Positions 15,636 to 28,016 of a stretch of DNA of 64,000 bases are shown piece after piece. The position numbers and the translations under genes were made by a program. Under the pieces are notes generated by a model. The model saw nothing but the letters and a program-made list of their open reading frames with translations. It was not told where the DNA came from and searched no databases. How positions within the stretch are numbered: the stretch's first letter is position 1; every line of letters starts with the position of its first letter. Origin of the DNA: Butyrivibrio sp. (GTDB lineage: Bacteria; Bacillota; Clostridia; Lachnospirales; Lachnospiraceae); NCBI GenBank assembly GCA_015056495.1, contig SVGC01000002.1, forward strand, positions 1-64,000, written 5' to 3'.

Positions 15636-17285
15636 ATGGATATCTCCAATATAAATGTGATCAATGCTTTGGCTTCTAACTATATTCTTATTTATCACGT
15701 TGACCTTGTTAATGATTTTTTGAAGGTCATTTATGACACGCCTGAACAGGGGACTTTTGATATGGACAGGCAGGGTGTATATTCTGTTTTTAATTCCAAA
15801 TATTCACAGGGTAGGATCGATCCGGAATTTATTGAAGAAAGAGAAAGACTGGGCTCGATTGAACATATTATTGAAGAATTGACTCATAAAGAGTCTTTTG
15901 AAATATCTTATACAGTTAACTATGGCAAATGGAGAGTTGTAGAATTCAGAGTTGTAGCAAGGGATGCCAGCGGCAAACCTACTGATGCTCTTATGTGCTT
16001 TAGAAAACTTGATGATGACAGGGCAGAAGCATTCAGGGTAAAAAAAGAAAATGAGAAAAACAGAGAACTTCTTGAAATAGCCCTTCAGGAAGCCAGGCAG
16101 GCAAGCAAAGCTAAGACTGATTTTCTTTCAAACATGTCCCATGATATCAGAACACCTATGAATGCGATCATAGGTTATGCTACTTTGGCAAAAGCCAATA
16201 TCAATAACCCTGATAAAGCCAGTGAATATATAGATAAGACTTTAACTGCCAGTAAGAACCTGATGGAGCTTATTGGAAATATACTGGATATTACCAAGAT
16301 AGAGAGTGGAAGATTCCAGCTGGAGCATGAACCGGATAATATTATTTCTTTAATAGATGAACTTGTAAATGAAGTAAAGCCTTTGGCAGATAAAAAACAT
16401 CATTCACTTAGCCACAATGTGCGTGTGAAAAATCCTGTTGTACTTATTGATAAAAATAAGGTATTTAGGATTTTACAAAATATACTTCTTAATGCTATTA
16501 ACTATACTGATGAGAATGGACAGATTGATATTAAAGTGCTGGAGTATGAGAGCCAGACAAAGGGATATAGCACTTATCAATTTGAGATTTCTGACAATGG
16601 TATAGGGATCAGCGACGACTTCAAAGATAAGATATATGAACCTTTTTCCAGAGAGGATGATGAAAGGGTTGCTTTTGTCAATGGAAGCGGACTTGGTCTG
16701 TCCATAGTCAAGCAGATGATAGAACAGTTTGGTGGCACTATAGCTTTTTCCAGTGAAAAAGAAAAAGGAACCAAATTTATAGTAAGAATCGACCTAAAGC
16801 AACCGTCTCAGGATATTCTCAATAAGATCAATACTTTGACGGAAGCTAAAAATTCAGCTAATAATCATGAAGCTGTTTCGGATGCTATCAGTAATGGCAT
16901 ACTCAGAGACAAGCGCTTTCTTGTTGTTGATGACAATCTTATAAACGTTGATATTCTGTGTGATATTTTAAAGTCTCTTGGAGGTATCACTGAAACTGCT
17001 TCAAATGGCCTTATGGCTCTTGAGATGATCAAAAAACATGATTCTCTGTATTATAATGCAGTGCTCATGGATATGAAGATGCCAATCATGGATGGTGCCA
17101 AAGCTGTCAAAGAGATCAGAAAACTTGGAGATAGCTTTAAATCTGGAATTCCAGTTATAGGGATCAGCGCAAATGCATTTGCAGAAGAAAAAAGAAGAGC
17201 ATTGCAATCTGGTTGTGATGCCTTTTTGGCAAAGCCTATTAACACAAATGAGTTGATATTTATACTAAAAGAGGTAAGTTTGTAA
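15636..17285 (+). CDS. Soluble hybrid histidine kinase with C-terminal receiver
   Basis: 549 residues without any transmembrane segment. Domain order is: an N-terminal ~130-residue PAS-like region (IYHVDLVNDFLKVIYDTP), a helical linker, a HisKA domain with phospho-acceptor His169 (SHDIRTPMN), and a HATPase_c domain with N-box NILLNAINYT and G-boxes SDNGIGIS and GSGLGLS. A receiver domain at about 425-545 carries the phospho-acceptor Asp479 (MDMKMPIMDG). ATG 15636 has AAGGGGG upstream. It therefore senses a cytoplasmic signal and can relay phosphate internally. No partner regulator, Hpt or output gene is adjacent. Its promoter carries an operator-like inverted repeat. Confidence 0.9.
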   Translation: MDISNINVINALASNYILIYHVDLVNDFLKVIYDTPEQGTFDMDRQGVYSVFNSKYSQGRIDPEFIEERERLGSIEHIIEELTHKESFEISYTVNYGKWRVVEFRVVARDASGKPTDALMCFRKLDDDRAEAFRVKKENEKNRELLEIALQEARQASKAKTDFLSNMSHDIRTPMNAIIGYATLAKANINNPDKASEYIDKTLTASKNLMELIGNILDITKIESGRFQLEHEPDNIISLIDELVNEVKPLADKKHHSLSHNVRVKNPVVLIDKNKVFRILQNILLNAINYTDENGQIDIKVLEYESQTKGYSTYQFEISDNGIGISDDFKDKIYEPFSREDDERVAFVNGSGLGLSIVKQMIEQFGGTIAFSSEKEKGTKFIVRIDLKQPSQDILNKINTLTEAKNSANNHEAVSDAISNGILRDKRFLVVDDNLINVDILCDILKSLGGITETASNGLMALEMIKKHDSLYYNAVLMDMKMPIMDGAKAVKEIRKLGDSFKSGIPVIGISANAFAEEKRRALQSGCDAFLAKPINTNELIFILKEVSL

Positions 17286-17749: not shown

Positions 17750-20041
17750 ATGAAAAAGAGAACACTCGCGTCTCTCCTTGCTCTTACAATGGTTGCCAGC
17801 TTAGTTACTGGTTGCGGTAAGACAACAACAGAAGAGACAACAACTCAGACTCAGGAAACTGAGCAGACTTCTACAGACACAGCTGAAACAGCTGCAAGTG
17901 AAGAAGTAGCAGCAGAAGAAGAAACTTCAACTGCTGATCAGCCATCATCAATCCAGTTATTGAATGGCAAAGAATACGGAGAGAATGCTGATTACATTTC
18001 CCTCTATGATAAGTTTGGTAAGCAGATCACTATTGCTGACGTTACAGAAGATGAGACAACAGGTCTTGCATATCTTAATGTAGATGGTGAGACATATGAA
18101 CTTGGTCTTGATTTCTTGACAATGGCTATGGTTTACAATACTTCATATGAAGGAACAGATTTTGCTTCTGAAGATGAAGTATATGCAGAATGGTGGAAAT
18201 ACTACATTACACGTTGGAACTACCTGCTTCCAGAAATTCCACTGTATTCTAATGAATACTATGATATTTACAATGCTCAGATTAAGGGTGTAGAAGAGTA
18301 TCCTACAAACCCATATTGGGATCCGGCTGATGCTCTTATTGATTGGACATCTGAAAAGGAAGATAACTCAATCATCCTTGGAAGTTCAACAGACCTTTCT
18401 GGTAAGTTCAGATATGCTATATTTGGTGCATCAAGTCCTGGATCAGCAGATCTTGATATCCAGAATCTTACAAATGGTCTTGAAATTGTATCTCGTACAA
18501 AAGATGGTGGATATGAAGTAAATGACACTGTTGTTAAGGAATTTGATGAGACAGACAATGAAGATGGTTCTAAGACATACACAGTAACAATCAACGATGA
18601 TCTTCAGTTCTCTGATGGATCAGCTATTACAGCTAAGAACTATCTTTACAGAATCTTAGCATTCTCAACCCCGGTTGCTGCAGAAGCTGCTGCAAAAGAT
18701 CACAAGGCTACAATGAATTTTGTTGGCTATGATTCATTTGCTGCTTATGATGGAACAAATGATGGTGTTGACGGAGCTACTAAATATATCAGCGGTATAA
18801 GACTTATTGATGATTATACTTTCTCATTAACAGTTGATCCTCAGTATCTTCCATATTTCTATTCAATAACATACGCTGCACTTTTCCCATCATATAAGGA
18901 TCTGTGGCTTGGCGATTATGATATTGCTGATGATGGCGAAGGCGTTTATATCGAAGATGGTTTCTATGAAAAAAATGGTGACAGCTATGTAATGGCTTCA
19001 CATATTTCTGATTCTGCTAATAATACAGATACAACATATCCATATTCTGGTCCTTATGTTGTTGAATCTTATGATGCTAGTGATAAATCAGCTGTTCTTG
19101 TTAAGAACGAATACTTCAAGGGTAACTACGAAGGCACTACACCTTCTATTGAAAAGGTTATCTACAAGAAGGTTATTGCTGAAACACAGCTTGAAGACTT
19201 TAAGGCTGGCGGTGTAGATGTTCTTGCTGCTATCACAGGCGGTTCTGCAACAGATGAAGCTATTGCACTTGCAGATAGCTCAAACGGAGCATATGTATAT
19301 ACACACTATTCAAGAGCTGGTTATGGTAAGCTTGGTTTCCGTGCAGACTATGGTCCGGTTCAGTATACAGCAGTTCGTCAGGCAATTGCTTACTGTATGG
19401 ATAGAGCTACATTTGCTAAGGACTTCACAGGTGGTTACGGCGGTGTTGTTGATGGACCATACTATTCAGGTTCATGGATGTACAAAGCAGCTGTAGATCA
19501 GGGTATGCTTCTTGATGCTTATGATACATCTGTAGATTCAGCTATTGCAGTTCTTGAAGCTGATGGCTGGGTATATGATGCTGAAGGTAATGAATACACA
19601 GAAGGTGTTCGTTATAAGAAGATTTCTGGTGAGTATGCTACAGAGAACGACAAGAACTATCAGTCAATCGATGGTGCATATAAGACTGTAGAAATCGATG
19701 GCGACTACTACATGCCACTTGTACTTAACTGGTATGGTACAGCTGATAATGAGTTCTCAGATCTCCTTGTAACAGGTTTCGAGCAGAACGATAATATCGC
19801 TGCAGCTGGATTTGTTGTTCAGAAGACAACTGGTGACTTTGCTCCTATGCTTGATGAACTTGCACAGCAGCAGATTTATGGTTACTACAGCGGAACACCT
19901 ATGTACACATGCTTTAACTTTGCTACAGGTTTCAATTCAGCAGTATATGATTACTCATTCAATATGACAATTGACCCAAGCATGTATGATGATTATTCTT
20001 CATACTACATCAAGGATATGGCAGATATTTATTGGAACTAA
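17750..20041 (+). CDS. oppA: Oligopeptide-type ABC importer, substrate-binding lipoprotein
   Basis: A 763-residue family-5 solute-binding protein (OppA/DppA class). The lipoprotein signal ends in VTGC with lipidated Cys22, followed by a ~45-residue Thr/Glu/Ala linker. Typical family features are DDLQFSDGSAITAKNYLYR, the strand RLIDDYTFSLTV, and YTAVRQAIAYCMDRATFAKD, where the ligand cleft is built. It is about 200 residues longer than E. coli OppA, with inserted aromatic/Asp-rich segments (e.g. around 130-170). ATG 17750 has GGGAGGT upstream. It heads the oppABCDF unit, and the hairpin after it probably gives it higher mRNA levels than the permeases. Peptide specificity is inferred from family only. 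Confidence 0.9.
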   Translation: MKKRTLASLLALTMVASLVTGCGKTTTEETTTQTQETEQTSTDTAETAASEEVAAEEETSTADQPSSIQLLNGKEYGENADYISLYDKFGKQITIADVTEDETTGLAYLNVDGETYELGLDFLTMAMVYNTSYEGTDFASEDEVYAEWWKYYITRWNYLLPEIPLYSNEYYDIYNAQIKGVEEYPTNPYWDPADALIDWTSEKEDNSIILGSSTDLSGKFRYAIFGASSPGSADLDIQNLTNGLEIVSRTKDGGYEVNDTVVKEFDETDNEDGSKTYTVTINDDLQFSDGSAITAKNYLYRILAFSTPVAAEAAAKDHKATMNFVGYDSFAAYDGTNDGVDGATKYISGIRLIDDYTFSLTVDPQYLPYFYSITYAALFPSYKDLWLGDYDIADDGEGVYIEDGFYEKNGDSYVMASHISDSANNTDTTYPYSGPYVVESYDASDKSAVLVKNEYFKGNYEGTTPSIEKVIYKKVIAETQLEDFKAGGVDVLAAITGGSATDEAIALADSSNGAYVYTHYSRAGYGKLGFRADYGPVQYTAVRQAIAYCMDRATFAKDFTGGYGGVVDGPYYSGSWMYKAAVDQGMLLDAYDTSVDSAIAVLEADGWVYDAEGNEYTEGVRYKKISGEYATENDKNYQSIDGAYKTVEIDGDYYMPLVLNWYGTADNEFSDLLVTGFEQNDNIAAAGFVVQKTTGDFAPMLDELAQQQIYGYYSGTPMYTCFNFATGFNSAVYDYSFNMTIDPSMYDDYSSYYIKDMADIYWN

Positions 20042-20132: not shown

Positions 20133-20257
20133 GTTGTCGGTTTAAAGTTAAATTTTCGTTATATAGATATTTTCAGGTTTTAAATTCGAATATTTCTATC
20201 TGTATTAATTTCAGGTAGTTTATTATATAAAGTTTTATTTTTTAGGAGGTTTTGGCA

Positions 20258-21310
20258 ATGGGAAAGTATATCCTTAAAAGATTGGGCTATATGCTTGCGG
20301 TGCTTATAGTTCTTTCATTTATACTATTCCTTATATACAATCTTGTGCCTAATAACAGAGCATACACAGATGCTAAGGCTGAGCTTACGACTCAGAAGAC
20401 TCGTCTGCGTAACGCTACAGAGGCAGAGAAAGATGCTATATTTGAGGACTTGTATGTTGAGTATCAGCGTAGGTATGGAACTGATACAAATAACATGGTG
20501 GTAAGGTATTTGAGATGGGTAGGTCTTATGCCTAATTACTATGGTGAATATTCAGGATTACTTCAGGGTGATTTCGGCTATTCTTATGAGCTGAAGGACG
20601 ATGTTATAAATGTAGTTCAAGATCCGATGAAGAATACGGTATTCATAAATATTTTTGCAACTATTCTTGCACTTGGAATCACAATACCTCTTGGTATCGT
20701 GTGTGCTGTTAAAAAAGGAAGCAAGGGAGATCAGGCAATGCAGATCATAACGATCATAGGTTATTCGCTTCCTACTTTCGTAACATCAATCGTATTTGTT
20801 TGGATATTCTGCTCAATTCTTGGCTGGTTCCCACCAAGTGGTATGAAGACACCTGGTAGTAATTATACTGGCTGGAAGTGGTTTACAGATAGAATGTATT
20901 ATATGGCTCTGCCACTTATTACAATGACATTCTGTTCTCTTGGTTCAATGACAAGATATGTCAGAGCTTCTATGATCGATGCACTTTCACTTGATTGCAT
21001 CAGAACAGCTAGAGCTAAGGGTGTTACAGAAAAAGCAGTTATTTATTCTCATGCATGGAGAAATGCTCTTATTCCTATCGTTACACTTGTAGTAGGATGG
21101 TTCCTTGGTATCTTTGGTGGATCACTTATTTTCGAGAACATCTTTGGTATCAATGGTATGGGTAAGCTGATGATCACATCACTTCGTTCACAGGATTTTG
21201 ATGTTGTTGTGCTGTTACAGCTTTTCTATGTTGCTATTTCTCTTATAGGCAACCTGATAATCGATATAGTATACGGACTCGTTGACCCTAGAGTCAGAGT
21301 TAGCGCCTAA
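20258..21310 (+). CDS. oppB: Oligopeptide ABC importer, permease OppB type
   Basis: A 350-residue inner-membrane permease with about six transmembrane helices. The first (residues 8-28) is followed by a long extracytoplasmic loop of ~110 residues. The ATPase-coupling EAA-type motif is RTARAKGVTEKAVIYSHAWR, followed by NALIPIVTLV. Length is slightly above the usual ~310 because of charged sequence in the first loop (KAELTTQKTRLRNATEAEKD). ATG 20258 is eight bases after AGGAGG; the TTG two codons earlier is rejected. It pairs with the downstream OppC-type protein to form the pore. Confidence 0.93.
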   Translation: MGKYILKRLGYMLAVLIVLSFILFLIYNLVPNNRAYTDAKAELTTQKTRLRNATEAEKDAIFEDLYVEYQRRYGTDTNNMVVRYLRWVGLMPNYYGEYSGLLQGDFGYSYELKDDVINVVQDPMKNTVFINIFATILALGITIPLGIVCAVKKGSKGDQAMQIITIIGYSLPTFVTSIVFVWIFCSILGWFPPSGMKTPGSNYTGWKWFTDRMYYMALPLITMTFCSLGSMTRYVRASMIDALSLDCIRTARAKGVTEKAVIYSHAWRNALIPIVTLVVGWFLGIFGGSLIFENIFGINGMGKLMITSLRSQDFDVVVLLQLFYVAISLIGNLIIDIVYGLVDPRVRVSA

Positions 21311-21327
21311 GGAGCATGGAGACTGAT

Positions 21328-23460
21328 ATGAAGAAAAAGAATTTTTTTGGCCGTTTGTGCGGCTGGGCTAGAAGAGCGTTTTTTGGCGGAAGCAGAGAAC
21401 TTGCTGATTCCGTTGATGTCGAAGAAGTAGTTAGCCCAATTCAGCAGATCATTAGAAACTTCTTCGAAAGAAAACTTGCTGTTGTTGCACTGTGTGTTGT
21501 TATTGGTATGTTCTTACTGGTATTTATCGGACCTTTGTTCATGCCTAATTACTATGACTCATATACTGAAGTTACACAGAAAAATGTAGCTCCAACAATG
21601 AGTATGCTTAGTGTTCCATCAGAACTTAAAAATGATATTAAGATGATCGATAGTTATGGTAGTTTTTCTGTTGGTCTTTCTAATTCAGGTAAAGTATATG
21701 TCTGGGGTGCTACTAAGCTTGGTACAACAGGAATTGATATAAGTGAGATTCCTGAGTCAGTTCAGAATGATACAATAGCTTATGTTGCAGCTGGTATTGA
21801 CCATATTATTGCTATCAGTGAATCTGGTAAGGTATACGGTTGGGGATCCAATAAGCACGGCCAGTATATAACAACAGATGCTGAAGTACTTGAGATGCTT
21901 GAAGAAGCAGAAGAGTCAGTTAGTGAAGAAGAGGAAGCTATCCTTGAAGAATCAGGTGCTGAAGCTTCTACAGATGAGTCTGCAACAGAGGAAACAGCTA
22001 CAGAAGAAAATATTGCTGAAGATAGCGCTGCAGCTGAGATCATAGCTGAAAATGCTGATGCTACAGAAGAGACAACTACAAGCACAACATCATCTTCAGG
22101 TGAAAACATCATCGAAATGCCTGCTGAACTTGTTAATGGTACTATTGATGTAGCTAATATCAAAAAGCTGGTTTGTGGTTATCAGTGTACTGCAATCCTT
22201 ATGAATGATGGAAAGCTCTATATCTGGGGAAATGCTAATGCATACCAGAATATCAGTAGCTTTGTTGATAAGGATGATCTTACTGATATTGATTTTACTC
22301 TTAACTATGTTGTTGGACTTACAGATGCCGGAACTGGTATCTATACTGGTAAGAGAGGCTTATATGACCAATATCGTAGTAATATCAATGAGTCAGCAGT
22401 TGCTGCCAAGACATTCTTAAATGGCAGAACAATTGAAGCTATATATGCTACAAATAATCATATATGCGGACTTCTAAGTGATGGAAGCGTATTCTTTACT
22501 GGTAACTTTTCATCTGATAGTGTAGCAATGCCTACTCTTCACGATGGAGAAACCATTTTACAGTTAACATCCGGAACATATCATTATACAGCTCTTACTT
22601 CTGAGGGAAGAGTATTGTCATGGGGCGGATCAACACTTAACCAGACAGATGTTCCTTCAAATGTAGACGGTAAGACAGCAGCTGTTTACGCTGGTGCTTT
22701 CCAGAGTTATGCAGTTGATGAAAATGGTTCTCTTGTAAACAAGTGGGGACTTAAAGGATATATATTTGGTACTGATGGTTATGGTGCTGATATATTCCAG
22801 CGTATTATCCAGGGTGGTAAGATGACAATGACTATCGGTGCTGTTGCCGTTATCATTTCTACTATCATTGGTATTGTTGTTGGATGTATTTCAGGATACT
22901 TTGGTGGTGCAGTAGATATCATACTGATGCGTGTAGCTGAGATTTTTGCAGCTATTCCTTTCCTTCCATTTGCACTTATCCTTTCAGCTATCATGGCTCA
23001 GATGGATATATCTGAAAATGAAAAGATATTTATCCTTATGGGTATTCTTGGTATCCTGACTTGGACAGGCCTTGCAAGAATGGTTCGTGGACAGGTTCTT
23101 GTTGCTCGTGAAAATGAGTACGTTACTGCTGCTAAGGCTATGGGTGTTAAGGAATCACGTATTGCATTCAGACACATCCTTCCAAATATTGTTTCAATCA
23201 TATTTGTTACACTGACACTTGATTTTGCAACATGTATGCTTACAGAATCATCCCTTAGTTACCTTGGTTTTGGTGTTACATATCCAAGACCTACATGGGG
23301 CAACATGCTTAATGGTGCTAACAATTCAACAATTATTAAAAACTACTGGTGGCAATGGGTATTTACATCTATTTTCCTTGCAGTTACATGTATTTGCATA
23401 AATATTGTAGGTGATACACTTAGAGATGTAATGGATCCAAAATCTGACCGTGATAAATAA
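21328..23460 (+). CDS. oppC: OppC-type permease with inserted seven-repeat RCC1-like propeller
   Basis: 710 residues, against about 300 for ordinary OppC. Residues 1-80 are a normal start: cytoplasmic tail, then TM1 at ~50-71. The normal permease body resumes at FGTDGYGADIF (about 480), with five further helices and the coupling motif TAAKAMGVKESRIAFRHILP. Between them (about 80-475) lie seven RCC1-like repeats, each with an aromatic or small Gly turn and a WG-type end, near residues 106, 151, 279, 320, 370, 411 and 451 (e.g. VAAGIDHIIAISESGKVYGW). An acidic Ser/Thr/Glu linker of ~85 residues follows repeat 2. By OppC topology the insert faces outside. The reading frame is continuous. ATG 21328 has GGAG six bases upstream; ATG 21316 is too close to its ribosome site. 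Confidence 0.9.
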   Translation: MKKKNFFGRLCGWARRAFFGGSRELADSVDVEEVVSPIQQIIRNFFERKLAVVALCVVIGMFLLVFIGPLFMPNYYDSYTEVTQKNVAPTMSMLSVPSELKNDIKMIDSYGSFSVGLSNSGKVYVWGATKLGTTGIDISEIPESVQNDTIAYVAAGIDHIIAISESGKVYGWGSNKHGQYITTDAEVLEMLEEAEESVSEEEEAILEESGAEASTDESATEETATEENIAEDSAAAEIIAENADATEETTTSTTSSSGENIIEMPAELVNGTIDVANIKKLVCGYQCTAILMNDGKLYIWGNANAYQNISSFVDKDDLTDIDFTLNYVVGLTDAGTGIYTGKRGLYDQYRSNINESAVAAKTFLNGRTIEAIYATNNHICGLLSDGSVFFTGNFSSDSVAMPTLHDGETILQLTSGTYHYTALTSEGRVLSWGGSTLNQTDVPSNVDGKTAAVYAGAFQSYAVDENGSLVNKWGLKGYIFGTDGYGADIFQRIIQGGKMTMTIGAVAVIISTIIGIVVGCISGYFGGAVDIILMRVAEIFAAIPFLPFALILSAIMAQMDISENEKIFILMGILGILTWTGLARMVRGQVLVARENEYVTAAKAMGVKESRIAFRHILPNIVSIIFVTLTLDFATCMLTESSLSYLGFGVTYPRPTWGNMLNGANNSTIIKNYWWQWVFTSIFLAVTCICINIVGDTLRDVMDPKSDRDK

Positions 23461-23472
23461 GGGAGTATAACG

Positions 23473-24465
23473 ATGGCTTTATTAGAATTAAAAGATTTAC
23501 ATACCTTTTTTAGAACTAAAAAAGGAATAGTTAGAGCTGTCAATGGTGTATCTTATTCGGTAGATGAAGGAAAGACCATTGGCGTAGTAGGAGAATCCGG
23601 TTCCGGAAAGAGCGTATCTGCGATGAGTATTCTGCAGCTCCTTGATGGAAATGGATATATTGATAGCGGTGAGATCCTTTTCGATGGAAGAGATCTTACT
23701 AAGCTTTCAGAAAAGGAAATGTACAAGGTTCGTGGTAACGATATATCAGTTATCTTCCAGGAACCTATGACAAGCCTTAACCCTGTCTTCACTATTGAAA
23801 GACAGGTTAGTGAGCCTTTCATTATTCACCAGGGTATGAATAAGAAAGAAGCTGCTCAAAAAGTTATTGAGATGCTTTCTGATGTTAAGATTCCTAATCC
23901 TCAGATCGTAGCTAAACAGTATCCTCATCAGCTTTCTGGTGGTATGCGTCAGAGAGTTATGATCGCTATGGCTCTTGCTTGTAAGCCAAAGCTTCTTATC
24001 GCTGATGAGCCTACAACTGCTCTTGATGTTACTATTCAGGCGCAGATCCTTAAGCTTATGAATGACCTTAAGAGAGAATACAATACATCAATCATCTTCA
24101 TTACACATGACCTTGGTGTTATCAGACAGATAGCAGATACTGTTGCTGTTATGTACTGTGGTCAGGTTGTTGAGCTTACAGATGCAGAGACAGTATTCCA
24201 TGTTTCTGAGTATTCTCATCCATATACAGAAGGACTTATGGTATCAATTCCTAGACTTGATACTCCTTCTAACCAGAGACTTGATGCGATACCTGGTGCG
24301 GTTCCTCATCCTCTTAAACTTCCTAAGGGATGTAAGTTTGCACCTCGTTGTAAATATGCAACAGAGAAGTGCTTAAATGAAGAGCCACCTCTTGTTCAGG
24401 TAAGCCCAAATCAGTCAGTAAGATGTTTCTATGCTAGAAAGGAGGATCGTCATGTCACAAAATGA
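23473..24465 (+). CDS. oppD: Oligopeptide ABC importer, ATPase OppD type
   Basis: A 330-residue ABC ATPase that energises peptide uptake. Walker A is GESGSGKS, the Q-loop is FQEPMTSLNP, the signature is LSGGMRQR and Walker B is LLIADEPTTALDVT. The C-terminal oligopeptide-transporter extension contains a Cys set (CKFAPRCKYATEKCLNE, plus RCFYA) that in this family can hold an iron-sulfur cluster. Length and order are ordinary, in contrast to its OppF partner. ATG 23473 follows GGGAG, 12 bases after the permease stop. Its 3' end overlaps the next gene by 14 bases. Confidence 0.95.
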   Translation: MALLELKDLHTFFRTKKGIVRAVNGVSYSVDEGKTIGVVGESGSGKSVSAMSILQLLDGNGYIDSGEILFDGRDLTKLSEKEMYKVRGNDISVIFQEPMTSLNPVFTIERQVSEPFIIHQGMNKKEAAQKVIEMLSDVKIPNPQIVAKQYPHQLSGGMRQRVMIAMALACKPKLLIADEPTTALDVTIQAQILKLMNDLKREYNTSIIFITHDLGVIRQIADTVAVMYCGQVVELTDAETVFHVSEYSHPYTEGLMVSIPRLDTPSNQRLDAIPGAVPHPLKLPKGCKFAPRCKYATEKCLNEEPPLVQVSPNQSVRCFYARKEDRHVTK

Positions 24466-25981
24466 TAAAGTCCTTCTGAAGATTACAAACTTAAAACAGT
24501 ACTTCCCTGTAGGTAAGAAGGGAATGTATGTTAAGGCCAATGATGGTATCTCTCTTGATATCTATGAAGGTGAGACACTTGGTCTTGTAGGTGAGTCTGG
24601 ATGTGGTAAGTCTACATTCGGACGTACACTACTTCAGCTTTATCGTCAGACAGACGGTAGAACAATGTATTATGGAGCTTCTCTTGATGAACTTGCTCCT
24701 AAGTACGTTAAGAAGACAGTTTCACATCTGTCTAAACTTAAGAATAAGATGAATGAGTATCAGGCTGAGTATGAAAAGGCTCAGAAAGAATATGATGAGG
24801 CTTCTGATGATAAAAAGCTTCACCTTCACTCAGATCTTATGGCTAAAAAGAAAACAGCAGAAGATGCTTATCTCAATATTGTAAACCTTGTTGGAGGTTT
24901 TATTGTTGCTGATAATCTTGCTCCTGTTGAAAAGATTTATACTGAGAGATACAATGCTTGTGCTAAGCTTAGCAAAGATATCGAGAAGTATAAGGCTGCA
25001 AAGCTTGATTTTGATGAACTTGATTTTGAAGTAAACAAAAAGGCTGATAATGCTTCAGATAAGTTGAAGACAAAACGTTCATCATGCAGAGCTAAGGCTG
25101 ATACTCTTGCAAAGACTGTTGAGCAGGATAAGGCTGAAATTGCAAAGATTGATTCAAGAATTGAAGAGCTTCGTAACGATTACAAGGGTAATGCCGAGTT
25201 TGAAAAACATGAAGCTAACAGAGATGAGGGTATCGATCTTGCAAGACTTTCATATAATGAAGTTCGTCTTATCAGAGATCAGCTTCAGTATATCTTCCAG
25301 GATCCATATTCATCACTGAATCCTAGAATGACTGTTGGTACATTGATCGGTGAAGGCCTTATGGCTCACAAGTACTGCAAAAAGAACAATGAGAGAATGC
25401 AGGACATGGTTATCAAGACTATGGAAGAGTGCGGACTTGCAGGATACTTTGTTCACAGATTTGCTCACCAGTTCTCTGGTGGTCAGAGACAGCGTATTGG
25501 TATCGCACGAAGCCTTGCTGTTAATCCAAAATTTGTAGTATGTGATGAGGCTGTATCTGCTCTGGACGTTTCTATCCAGTCACAGATATTGAACCTTCTT
25601 CAGGATCTTAAAGAGCAGAAGAACCTTACATACCTGTTCATTACACATGATCTTTCAGTAGTTAAGTATATCTCTGATAGAATTGGTGTTATGTATCTTG
25701 GTAACCTGGTTGAACTTGCAACAGCTGATGATATATTTGCTGCACCAGCTCATCCTTATACTAAGGCTCTTTTGGAATCAATTCCTACAACAGACGACAA
25801 GAAGGATCTTGTTGTTCTTGAAGGAGATATACCTAGCCCGGTTAATCCTCCTAAGGGATGTAAGTTCCATACAAGATGTAAGTATTGCACAGAGATCTGT
25901 GAACATGTTGTTCCAGATTGGGAAGAGGTTTCTCCTAACCACTTTGTTGCTTGCCACCACAAGCTTGTTAAAGAGGGATGA
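24452..25981 (+). CDS. oppF: OppF-type ATPase with coiled-coil insertion
   Basis: 509 residues, against about 320 for ordinary OppF. Walker A (GESGCGKST, 47-55) and Q-loop (FQDPYSSLNPRM, from ~282) are normally ~50 residues apart but here are separated by ~230. The extra ~180 residues (about 80-265) are rich in Lys, Glu, Ala and Asp with heptad-like spacing (KLKNKMNEYQAEYEKAQKEY, TLAKTVEQDKAEIAKIDSRI) and predict as coiled coil. The signature FSGGQRQR, Walker B FVVCDEAVSALDVS, H-loop FITHD and C-terminal Cys set (CKFHTRCKYCTEIC) are intact, so it should still be an active ATPase. ATG 24452 has AGGAGG upstream and overlaps oppD. Confidence 0.92.
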   Translation: MSQNDKVLLKITNLKQYFPVGKKGMYVKANDGISLDIYEGETLGLVGESGCGKSTFGRTLLQLYRQTDGRTMYYGASLDELAPKYVKKTVSHLSKLKNKMNEYQAEYEKAQKEYDEASDDKKLHLHSDLMAKKKTAEDAYLNIVNLVGGFIVADNLAPVEKIYTERYNACAKLSKDIEKYKAAKLDFDELDFEVNKKADNASDKLKTKRSSCRAKADTLAKTVEQDKAEIAKIDSRIEELRNDYKGNAEFEKHEANRDEGIDLARLSYNEVRLIRDQLQYIFQDPYSSLNPRMTVGTLIGEGLMAHKYCKKNNERMQDMVIKTMEECGLAGYFVHRFAHQFSGGQRQRIGIARSLAVNPKFVVCDEAVSALDVSIQSQILNLLQDLKEQKNLTYLFITHDLSVVKYISDRIGVMYLGNLVELATADDIFAAPAHPYTKALLESIPTTDDKKDLVVLEGDIPSPVNPPKGCKFHTRCKYCTEICEHVVPDWEEVSPNHFVACHHKLVKEG

Positions 25982-26497: not shown

Positions 26498-26743
26498 ATG
26501 ACTGTTTTAGAGATTGTATTAGGAGTTATTTTTATAATAGTATGTTGTGTACTTACTGTAATCGTACTTGCTCAGGAAGGTAAGACACAGGGACTTGGTG
26601 CTATCCAGGGATTTGCTACTGATAATACTTATTGGAGCAAAGCTAAAGGACGTTCTAAAGAAGGCGTTTTAAAGAAGGTTACAGTTGTTATGGCAGTATT
26701 ATTTATTGCTTTAGGAATTGTCCTTAATCTTAGCATGATCTAA
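26498..26743 (+). CDS. secG: Protein-export membrane protein SecG
   Basis: An 81-residue accessory subunit of the SecYEG translocon. It has two transmembrane helices (about 4-22 and 58-78) joined by the conserved cytoplasmic loop with VIVLAQEGKTQGLGAIQG, where the Q-E-G-K and GLG pattern is the family mark. ATG 26498 has GAGGAGGT ten bases upstream. SecG followed by rnr, smpB and ssrA is a common order in Firmicutes; here a serine hydrolase gene sits between secG and rnr. Confidence 0.93.
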   Translation: MTVLEIVLGVIFIIVCCVLTVIVLAQEGKTQGLGAIQGFATDNTYWSKAKGRSKEGVLKKVTVVMAVLFIALGIVLNLSMI

Positions 26744-26785: not shown

Positions 26786-26837
26786 TATCATAGCTTTCCT
26801 ATGATTTTAAAAATTTTAAATGAGAAGGTAAATGGGG

Positions 26838-28016
26838 ATGAAAAAACTTATTGATGAAGCAATATTGAGGGCTATTGAGACTAAAGAAGTTGCCGGAGTT
26901 AACTTTTTAGTATATAAAGATGGTAAAGAACTTATCTATGCTGAAGGCGGTGTTCAGAACATAGATGATAATAAACCTTTTAAGAGAGACACTATATTTA
27001 GATTATTTTCACAGACTAAGCCTATTACTGCGGCTGCAGCAATGATCCTTGTTGAAAGAGGAATGCTTGATCTTACTGATGAAGTGTCAAAGTTTTTGCC
27101 AGCATACAAGAATATTAAGACAATAAAAGATGGTCAGGTAGTTAACTGCAATAGACCAATGCTGGTTAAAGATCTTTTAGATATGACTTCAGGACTTGTG
27201 TATCCTGATATTAATTGTGAAGCTGGAAGACAGACTACAAAAGTCTTTTTAGATCTTGAACATAGGATTGATTCTGATAATCCTATGACTACAAGAGAAG
27301 TGGCAGATCAGCTGGCAGAATGTGTGCTGGATTTTGAACCTGGTTCAAGCTTTAGATATGGTACATCTGCGGATGTGCTTGGAGCTGTTATTGAGGTTGT
27401 TGCAGGTACAAAATTTGGAGATTTTTTACGTGAAGAAATATTTGAACCTCTTGAAATGAAAGATACTGCTTTTTATGTTCCTGAGGACAAGATGGGCAGG
27501 CTTGCTACTGCCTACAGAACATCTACTAATAAAGATGGTGAGACAAGGCTTAAAGAGTATGATTGGAACAATCTTGGCGTACGCAGAGATGCTATCAAAC
27601 CTCCAGCATTTGAATCAGGCGGAGCAGGCCTTCTTTCAACAGTTGATGACTATATGAAATTTGGTCAGATGCTTTTAAATGGTGGTAGTTTTAAGGATGC
27701 ACACATTTTAAAGCCTGCTACAGTTAGATTTATGACAAGTGGAGAATTATCTGCTCGTCAGCAGGTGGCGCTCGAAGACTGGACTGGACTTTGGGGTTAT
27801 TCATACAATAATCTCCTTAGAGTCTGCAAAAACAGCTCAAGATCAAGTTATATCAGCTGTAATGGAGAATATGGCTGGGATGGCTGGCTTGGAGCATATT
27901 TTTCCAATTTCCCTAATGAGAATATGACTATAGTAATGGGTACGCAAAAGGTTGATGGTGGTACTTTTGCTCTTACAAGAAAACTCAGGAATATAGTTCT
28001 TTCTCATGTATTGTAA
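26838..28016 (+). CDS. Serine hydrolase, class C beta-lactamase / esterase fold
   Basis: A 392-residue cytoplasmic protein (no signal peptide) of the beta-lactamase/transpeptidase-like serine hydrolases, nearest to EstB-type esterases. The active-site SxxK is SQTK (Ser58, Lys61), and the Tyr motif is Tyr174 in RYGTSADVLG, replacing the usual YSN. The C-terminal third-motif region lies around DGWLGAYFSNFPNE. Without export it is unlikely to confer drug resistance and more likely hydrolyses a small ester or amide. ATG 26838 has GAGAAGG nine bases upstream; ATG 26832 is two codons earlier and too near the ribosome site. It separates secG from rnr. Confidence 0.85.
   Translation: MKKLIDEAILRAIETKEVAGVNFLVYKDGKELIYAEGGVQNIDDNKPFKRDTIFRLFSQTKPITAAAAMILVERGMLDLTDEVSKFLPAYKNIKTIKDGQVVNCNRPMLVKDLLDMTSGLVYPDINCEAGRQTTKVFLDLEHRIDSDNPMTTREVADQLAECVLDFEPGSSFRYGTSADVLGAVIEVVAGTKFGDFLREEIFEPLEMKDTAFYVPEDKMGRLATAYRTSTNKDGETRLKEYDWNNLGVRRDAIKPPAFESGGAGLLSTVDDYMKFGQMLLNGGSFKDAHILKPATVRFMTSGELSARQQVALEDWTGLWGYSYNNLLRVCKNSSRSSYISCNGEYGWDGWLGAYFSNFPNENMTIVMGTQKVDGGTFALTRKLRNIVLSHVL

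Follow-up and report, generated by a model that had tools for sequence, protein, structure and literature searches.

A predicted RCC1/BLIP-II-type propeller within the OppC permease of a Butyrivibrio Opp importer and its possible role in docking a circularly permuted OppA

The opp operon and its propeller-bearing permease

The window under study, a stretch of 64,000 nucleotides from Butyrivibrio sp. (contig SVGC01000002.1 of assembly GCA_015056495.1), carries an opp operon in the order A-B-C-D-F, with oppC lying between oppB and oppD. The same order is found in those relatives that were read for all five genes and have enough flanking sequence (L158-L173 were read for OppA, OppC and OppF only). 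The features of the operon are the following.

17750..20041, plus strand: oppA, 763 aa, a circularly permuted substrate-binding lipoprotein of the SBP_bac_5 family (evidence: Pfam, crossing matches, lipobox and model)
18107..18340, plus strand: OppA residues 120-197, equivalent to the C-terminal end of an ordinary OppA (42% identity to L112 566-634)
18365..20038, plus strand: OppA residues 206-763, equivalent to the part that comes first in an ordinary OppA (37% identity to L112 42-551)
20252..21310, plus strand: oppB, permease subunit, 352 aa (BPD_transp_1, 131.4 bits); an ATG at 20258 is also possible
21328..23460, plus strand: oppC, propeller-bearing permease, 710 aa from the ATG at 21328; alternative start at 21316
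21472..21540, plus strand: OppC TM1 (residues 49-71), a helix at 49-71 in the model, with OppC_N at 36-89
21565..22761, plus strand: predicted seven-bladed RCC1/BLIP-II-like propeller inserted in OppC (residues 80-478), from Pfam, repeat profile, model and fold match
21637..21708, plus strand: blade 1 (104-127), three strands in the model, and repeat profile
21775..21846, plus strand: blade 2 (150-173), model and repeat profile
21868..22113, plus strand: linker of acidic, low-complexity sequence separating blades 2 and 3 (residues about 181-262), from alignment A1, low model confidence and dN/dS of 0.18-0.51
22159..22233, plus strand: blade 3 (278-302), model and repeat profile
22279..22350, plus strand: blade 4 (318-341), degenerate, with strands at 318-323 and 328-332 and a two-residue third; profile borderline
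22432..22503, plus strand: blade 5 (369-392), model and repeat profile
22555..22626, plus strand: blade 6 (410-433), model and repeat profile
22681..22749, plus strand: blade 7 (452-474), model and repeat profile
22762..23457, plus strand: OppC permease core (residues 479-710)
23473..24465, plus strand: oppD, ATPase subunit (ABC_tran and oligo_HPY)
24431..25981, plus strand: oppF, ATPase subunit, 516 aa (ABC_tran and oligo_HPY); an internal start (MSQN...) is possible
24698..25225, plus strand: OppF insert of about 170 aa, lysine/glutamate-rich, about residues 90-265, between the Walker A segment and the Q-loop

Compared with the solved importers E. coli OppBCDF (8z21) and DppABCDF and M. tuberculosis OppABCD (8j5s), the window system is an Opp importer with three unusual parts, namely about 400 residues inserted before the permease segment of OppC, a permuted OppA and the insert in OppF. 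The five solved OppC and DppC proteins that were matched are 287-302 aa long, with the permease segment beginning at residue 63-83. A first-pass annotation, made from the letters alone, had caught the propeller and missed the permuted OppA, the OppF insert, the loss of the lipid anchor in relatives and the wide spread of the system.

The oppC gene is a single unbroken frame (21316-23460) of 714 aa, or of 710 aa if begun at the ATG at 21328, where most Butyrivibrio copies of the protein begin (MKKK). That this permease reads through 710 residues uninterrupted, as first proposed, is borne out by the open frame and by its Pfam domains, with OppC_N at residues 36-89 (43.2 bits, above the cut-off of 23.9) and BPD_transp_1 at residues 515-705 (105.7 bits, above 26.4), and the permease segment indeed takes up again at an FGTD motif near residue 480. 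The best of the NCBIfam whole-protein models, Opp4C (NF045476), scores 294.2 bits, below its cut-off of 350, and the protein is a distinct, insert-bearing OppC subfamily. An artefact or frameshift as the origin of the fusion is ruled out by the same fusion in many MAGs and in strain-titled records, which comprise Butyrivibrio sp. AE3009, Su6, MC2021 and AE2015, B. proteoclasticus P18, Acetatifactor muris DSM 23669 and Lachnospiraceae bacterium YSD2013.

Within the inserted segment, the Pfam model RCC1_2 matches five stretches with 104.3 bits (cut-off 22) and RCC1 reaches 31.5 bits (cut-off 21.7), while the whole-domain model WD40_RLD (PF25390) stays under its cut-off with 116.7 against 150 bits; RCC1_2 was found in all 26 family members at E 0.001. 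A genome search with the Pfam RCC1 model gave no match in the window's own genome and likewise none in 14 control genomes, and was therefore disregarded. To judge the single repeats, each blade was scored by a profile built with that blade left out, with the 99th percentile of shuffles as the threshold. Blades 1, 2, 3, 5, 6 and 7 of the window exceed this threshold and blade 4 falls narrowly under it (5.4 vs 5.6); across the family, blades 1, 2, 3, 5 and 6 pass in 26/26 members, blade 4 in 15/26 and blade 7 in 17/26. The AlphaFold2 model of OppC has seven blades, six of them with three strands of at least three residues, the third strand of blade 4 being only two residues long. The mean pLDDT of the propeller is 78-95 in ten-residue blocks from residue 91 on, linker excluded, and block means of 35-86 put the transmembrane part at low to medium confidence. 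BLIP-II is the best fold match of the propeller. The seven RCC1-type repeats of the first-pass annotation thus reappear as seven predicted blades, six of which score above shuffles; the span then given, 21565-22750, fits the propeller domain, and the structure prediction suggested at that time returned a complete propeller and not an unclosed one. Taken together, the model, the profiles and the fold match make it well supported that OppC carries a full seven-bladed propeller of RCC1/BLIP-II type between TM1 and TM2. By homology with solved OppC and DppC it would lie outside the cell, in line with the topology argument made earlier.

The acidic linker, also recognised at first reading between repeats 2 and 3, is confined within alignment A1 to the Butyrivibrio group (four rows), and its residues 209-258 have a pLDDT below 50 in the model. 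Antisense to it runs a 127-aa open frame (21780-22163, minus strand), which is probably a by-product of the skewed codons of the linker.

Spread of the propeller and selection on it

A search of named genomes yielded 43 loci from Butyrivibrio, other Lachnospiraceae, Oscillospiraceae, Christensenellaceae and Clostridia MAGs, and by their titles many of the named records stem from rumen and gut. The 32 full-length relatives that were aligned, out of 44, share 53-86% identity with the window OppC. With the propeller profile, matches were obtained in 17/392 genomes of the order and 15/391 of the class (E 1e-20, own genome included), in 11/79 of the genus (E 1e-15) and in 58/398 of the phylum (1e-15). 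Among the 58 phylum matches, 14 are full-length, with at least 276 bits and frames of 555-718 aa, a count that takes in G483 and the window's own genome; the remaining 44 are weaker, partial matches, most of them in frames of quite different sizes.

As these loci were collected via propeller searches, a search with the permease core only, blind to the propeller, served as an independent check. Applied to 291 class genomes, it gave 13 matches of at least 362 bits, their frames spanning 609-718 aa and the next best match scoring 290 bits, and all 13 carry the propeller. The full-length gene is present in three of 36 further genomes of the genus; for the others, the top matches are to different OppCs, at about 40% identity or lower. 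Homologues without the insert or with a broken frame, which the first-pass annotation had named as the case against the fusion, did not turn up: neither the 291 class genomes nor the 36 genus genomes showed a copy of this OppC that lacks the propeller or has a disrupted frame.

Twelve lower-scoring loci (L180-L191) have no match to the propeller profile; several of them bear other inserts at the same place, and L187 bears none. Inserts of about 120-350 aa at the TM1-TM2 position were seen in the OppCs of L005, L008, L016, L024, L180-L183, L185, L186 and L188-L190, and ten of these proteins (L005, L008, L016, L024, L180, L181, L182, L185, L189 and L190) have only permease Pfam domains at E 0.001. 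Such varied inserts mark the segment as a recurrent insertion place, of which the propeller is one clade's version. Two unusual architectures were also encountered: L191:1915-3588 (minus strand) joins in one frame an OppC-type permease and, after it, an ABC ATPase domain, an OppC-OppD fusion, and L121:7684-10314 encodes an OppC of 876 aa with 11 RCC1-type repeat matches where five to seven are usual; a duplication may have given it a second propeller.

In a tree of the OppC core plus OppD (101 rows, quick LG+G4, no bootstrap, 14 near-copy loci omitted: L002-L004, L009-L015, L018 and L020-L022), the 77 rows that carry a propeller all fall into a single clade (SH-aLRT 100), the label needing one change, with the warning that long branches meet at the outgroup. 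The loci are non-independent and several are near-copies (e.g. L048 and L172), so that counts are not events. On present data, the propeller was inserted into OppC once and then kept.

Between Butyrivibrio copies, dN/dS is about 0.02-0.09 for blades 1-2, 0.09-0.15 for blades 3-7 and 0.02-0.04 for the permease core, against 0.18-0.51 for the acidic linker (seven pairs, six of which gave a value for blades 1-2 and six for the linker; dS is in part saturated). The propeller blades are under purifying selection.

The permuted OppA and its lipid anchor

The window OppA is recognised by SBP_bac_5 with 110.6 bits, above the Pfam cut-off of 32.4, and does not follow the canonical chain order, as its matches to canonical OppAs cross. 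Residues 145-197 match the C-terminus (507-556) of PDB 9p48 (562 aa), while residues 229-300 match, weakly, 21-88 and residues 434-607 match 177-343 of the same chain. In BLAST, crossing matches were obtained with all seven canonical OppAs taken from other propeller operons; with that of L112 (639 aa), window residues 205-745 align to 42-551 at 37% identity and residues 120-197 to 566-634 at 42%. Rotation of the window protein restores a colinear alignment with L112 and L171. The AlphaFold2 model of OppA (mean pLDDT 76.6), compared with solved OppAs in chain order, is covered over about residues 180-760 by only the first part of the solved chains; 1ola aligns over 1-441 of 517 residues and its C-terminus is left over, as expected if the N-terminal part of the model supplies the C-terminus of the chain. 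We therefore consider the circular permutation of the window OppA well supported.

Across 78 propeller loci, OppA is permuted in 40 and canonical in 26; the moved segment was not found in four (L055, where OppA is cut by the contig end, L121, L124 and L125), and no OppA was found in eight. The permuted-OppA rows (41, with 5 unassigned) form one clade inside the propeller clade (SH-aLRT 100), the label again needing one change, and this nesting makes it most likely that the propeller came first and the permutation later. Eight genomes of the genus have 703-718 aa OppC frames like that of the window; the presence of the canonical-OppA form in G1190, G1194 and G1195, inside the window's own genus, hints at horizontal spread. 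A separate arrangement is found at L192:9919-14434 (minus strand), where two adjoining OppA genes lie upstream of a propeller OppC, both canonical with the tail segment at the C-terminus.

The lipobox of the window OppA is VTGC at residue 22. The anchor cysteine is retained in 34 of 42 permuted OppAs (L069 being ambiguous, and L038 and L072 having apparently atypical lipoboxes), while the remaining eight (L039, L040, L054, L059, L060, L067, L068 and L071) have a signal peptide of cleavable type with no cysteine at the expected place. In L040, L054, L059 and L068, where the start is shown, a GGAGG-type ribosome-binding site lies upstream of the anchorless OppA. All 26 canonical OppAs have a lipobox, that of L115 being atypical; anchor loss is thus seen only inside the permuted clade, where the cases cluster in few branches. 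Where there is no outer membrane, an unanchored binding protein should be lost by diffusion unless something retains it. Low-complexity repeats (APETT, AEQP) that differ in length among relatives were noted in OppA linkers past the lipobox (L053:2115-4511, L061:1787-4204 and L073:2001-4469).

Possible functions of the propeller

Fold, distribution and permutation being well supported, we offer as a working hypothesis, and tentatively, that the operon encodes all parts of a type I peptide importer (OppABCDF) and that its propeller may act as an extracellular dock that holds OppA. According to this proposal, a BLIP-II-like propeller would have entered OppC at its extracellular TM1-TM2 segment and been retained there; it would bind a lobe of OppA and keep it above the OppB/OppC entrance, as MalF-P2 does for MalE. 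An OppA held by the transporter would be free to change its own anchoring and chain order, and in the window's sub-lineage it would then have become circularly permuted, with several members later losing the lipid anchor. That the substrates are probably peptides is suggested by the SBP_bac_5 and oligo_HPY domains and by a Peptidase_M3 gene (Pfam) within the fetched stretch of 17/78 propeller loci, such a gene being absent from the window.

We infer both the contact between propeller and OppA and the retention of OppA from position and precedent. The P2 domain of MalF is not a propeller and sits at a different position in the permease. It is likewise an extracytoplasmic domain grown from a permease subunit, and it is in direct contact with MalE (PMC3150292, in excerpt); the propeller-OppA contact, by difference, is a proposed one. 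In E. coli DppB, the sister subunit of DppC, the TM1-TM2 region forms a scoop motif that enters the cleft of DppA (PMC12136057, in excerpt), and the OppC insert, at the equivalent place, would lie at the docking face for the binding protein. The scoop position and the MalF-P2 precedent together lead us to favour a dock for OppA. The permutation too has a natural parallel in TpMglB-2 of Treponema, the permuted glucose-binding protein of an ABC system (PMC4990184, in excerpt), which belongs to the sugar-binding cluster B, whereas the window OppA is an SBP_bac_5 protein (cluster C) with canonical relatives inside the same transporter clade. Among the titles and abstracts surveyed, we found no description of an RCC1-OppC fusion or of a permuted OppA, and no paper of the collection searched combines RCC1 and OppC.

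Co-divergence of propeller and OppA was assessed by partial correlation of distance matrices given the other subunits in 56 operons. The propeller-OppA pair gave 0.83 (Pearson) and 0.50 (Spearman), compared with 0.82 and 0.64 for OppB and OppC core, which are known partners, and with -0.03 and -0.07 for the propeller and its own permease core. With OppB split into outside and membrane parts, propeller-OppA stood at 0.73 and 0.40 vs 0.22 and 0.20 for the outside part of OppB and OppA, where the scoop contact is known, an order that is reversed in the canonical clade alone (0.37 and 0.30 vs 0.47 and 0.34). The separation of the permuted from the canonical clade accounts for most of the signal. 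In the permuted clade, where known pairs are recovered (OppB-OppC core 0.91, OppD-OppF 0.82), propeller-OppA gave 0.66 and 0.24, or 0.32 and 0.06 without the outlier L107; in the canonical clade it gave 0.32 and 0.25, with propeller-OppB as high (0.26 and 0.36). As the non-touching pair OppA-OppD reaches 0.42 by rank, near the 0.50 of propeller-OppA in all 56 operons, the test is not specific, and shared fast evolution or rate shifts of two outside domains could yield the same signal. The distance matrices thus lend the docking proposal partial support. BLIP-II is a free inhibitor that binds beta-lactamases, whereas the window propeller is built into a permease, and by this analogy, which speaks against docking of OppA, it could bind another protein. 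The anchor cysteine kept by 34 of 42 permuted OppAs and the clustering of the losses likewise count against docking.

If the propeller does dock OppA, a bolder version, which we consider rather doubtful, is that this Gram-positive importer has a permease with its own receptor, OppA being a near-permanent subunit thereby freed for permutation and, in some species, for anchorless secretion, with the OppF insert as the inner half of the device. The family offers a natural series from OppC without propeller, over propeller with ordinary OppA and with permuted OppA, to propeller with anchorless permuted OppA. With it, two questions become open to test: by what means an ABC importer of a cell lacking an outer membrane recognises its binding protein and keeps hold of it, and what gives rise to circularly permuted binding proteins. 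Its placement in a permease would also give the BLIP-II-like fold a new role.

RCC1-type propellers are binding folds, and the propeller might itself capture the incoming ligand (some solute, for instance a peptide) at its face or within a central pocket and pass it to OppA or the channel. BtuG2, a seven-bladed propeller in stable complex with the cell-surface transporter BtuB, does so for vitamin B12 in its central cavity (PMC10404256, in excerpt). Unlike the window propeller, BtuG is a lipoprotein of its own that sits on a TonB transporter of the outer membrane. The M3 peptidase genes would make a supply of peptides plausible. We consider this unlikely, since an importer with its own OppA has no need of a second capture protein and the greater part of the domain, blades 3-7, is more variable than blades 1-2.

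Rumen and gut are rich in substrate-degrading surface proteins, and with many records coming from there and a protein-binding propeller as the best fold match, the domain might instead recruit a third partner to the importer, such as a protease of the cell surface, a polymer of the wall or some other protein of the envelope. The search for a partner gene found none, the sole neighbour scored, the M3 peptidase, lying near only 17 of the 78 loci, and we judge such recruitment improbable.

The OppF insert, which splits the ABC_tran match and by its composition is probably helical, is present in 71/72 propeller loci with OppF (shorter in L115, L119, L120 and L123; some OppFs are cut by contig ends) and absent from the non-propeller Opp operons (0/9 and 0/12, 0/21 in total). 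E. coli DppC pairs with DppF (PMC12136057, in excerpt), so by homology propeller and insert would belong to the same transporter half, one outside and one inside. That the two form one cross-membrane gate or sensor, by which ATP hydrolysis would respond to the loading of OppA or to a signal from outside, is nevertheless quite improbable: L118 has the propeller without the insert, propeller and OppF distances are hardly linked (partial correlation 0.19 Pearson, 0.10 Spearman), and both features may merely share one ancestor. Least probable of all is a tolerated ancestral insertion with no present function, which the different inserts that other OppCs hold at this site would allow and against which stand the purifying selection on the blades (dN/dS 0.02-0.15 vs 0.18-0.51 in the linker, dS partly saturated), the presence of the propeller in scattered genomes across the phylum and the lack of any propeller-less clade member among those found.

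Around the operon, promoter- and terminator-like sites are no commoner than in shuffles. Downstream lies a gene for a beta-lactamase-family (PF00144) serine hydrolase (26832-28016), which was considered as linked to the propeller because BLIP-II binds beta-lactamases, and between it and the operon a small frame at about 26498-26743, which we take to be SecG-like. Directly upstream of oppA, positions 15636-17285 encode a histidine kinase with a receiver domain (HisKA, HATPase_c and Response_reg).
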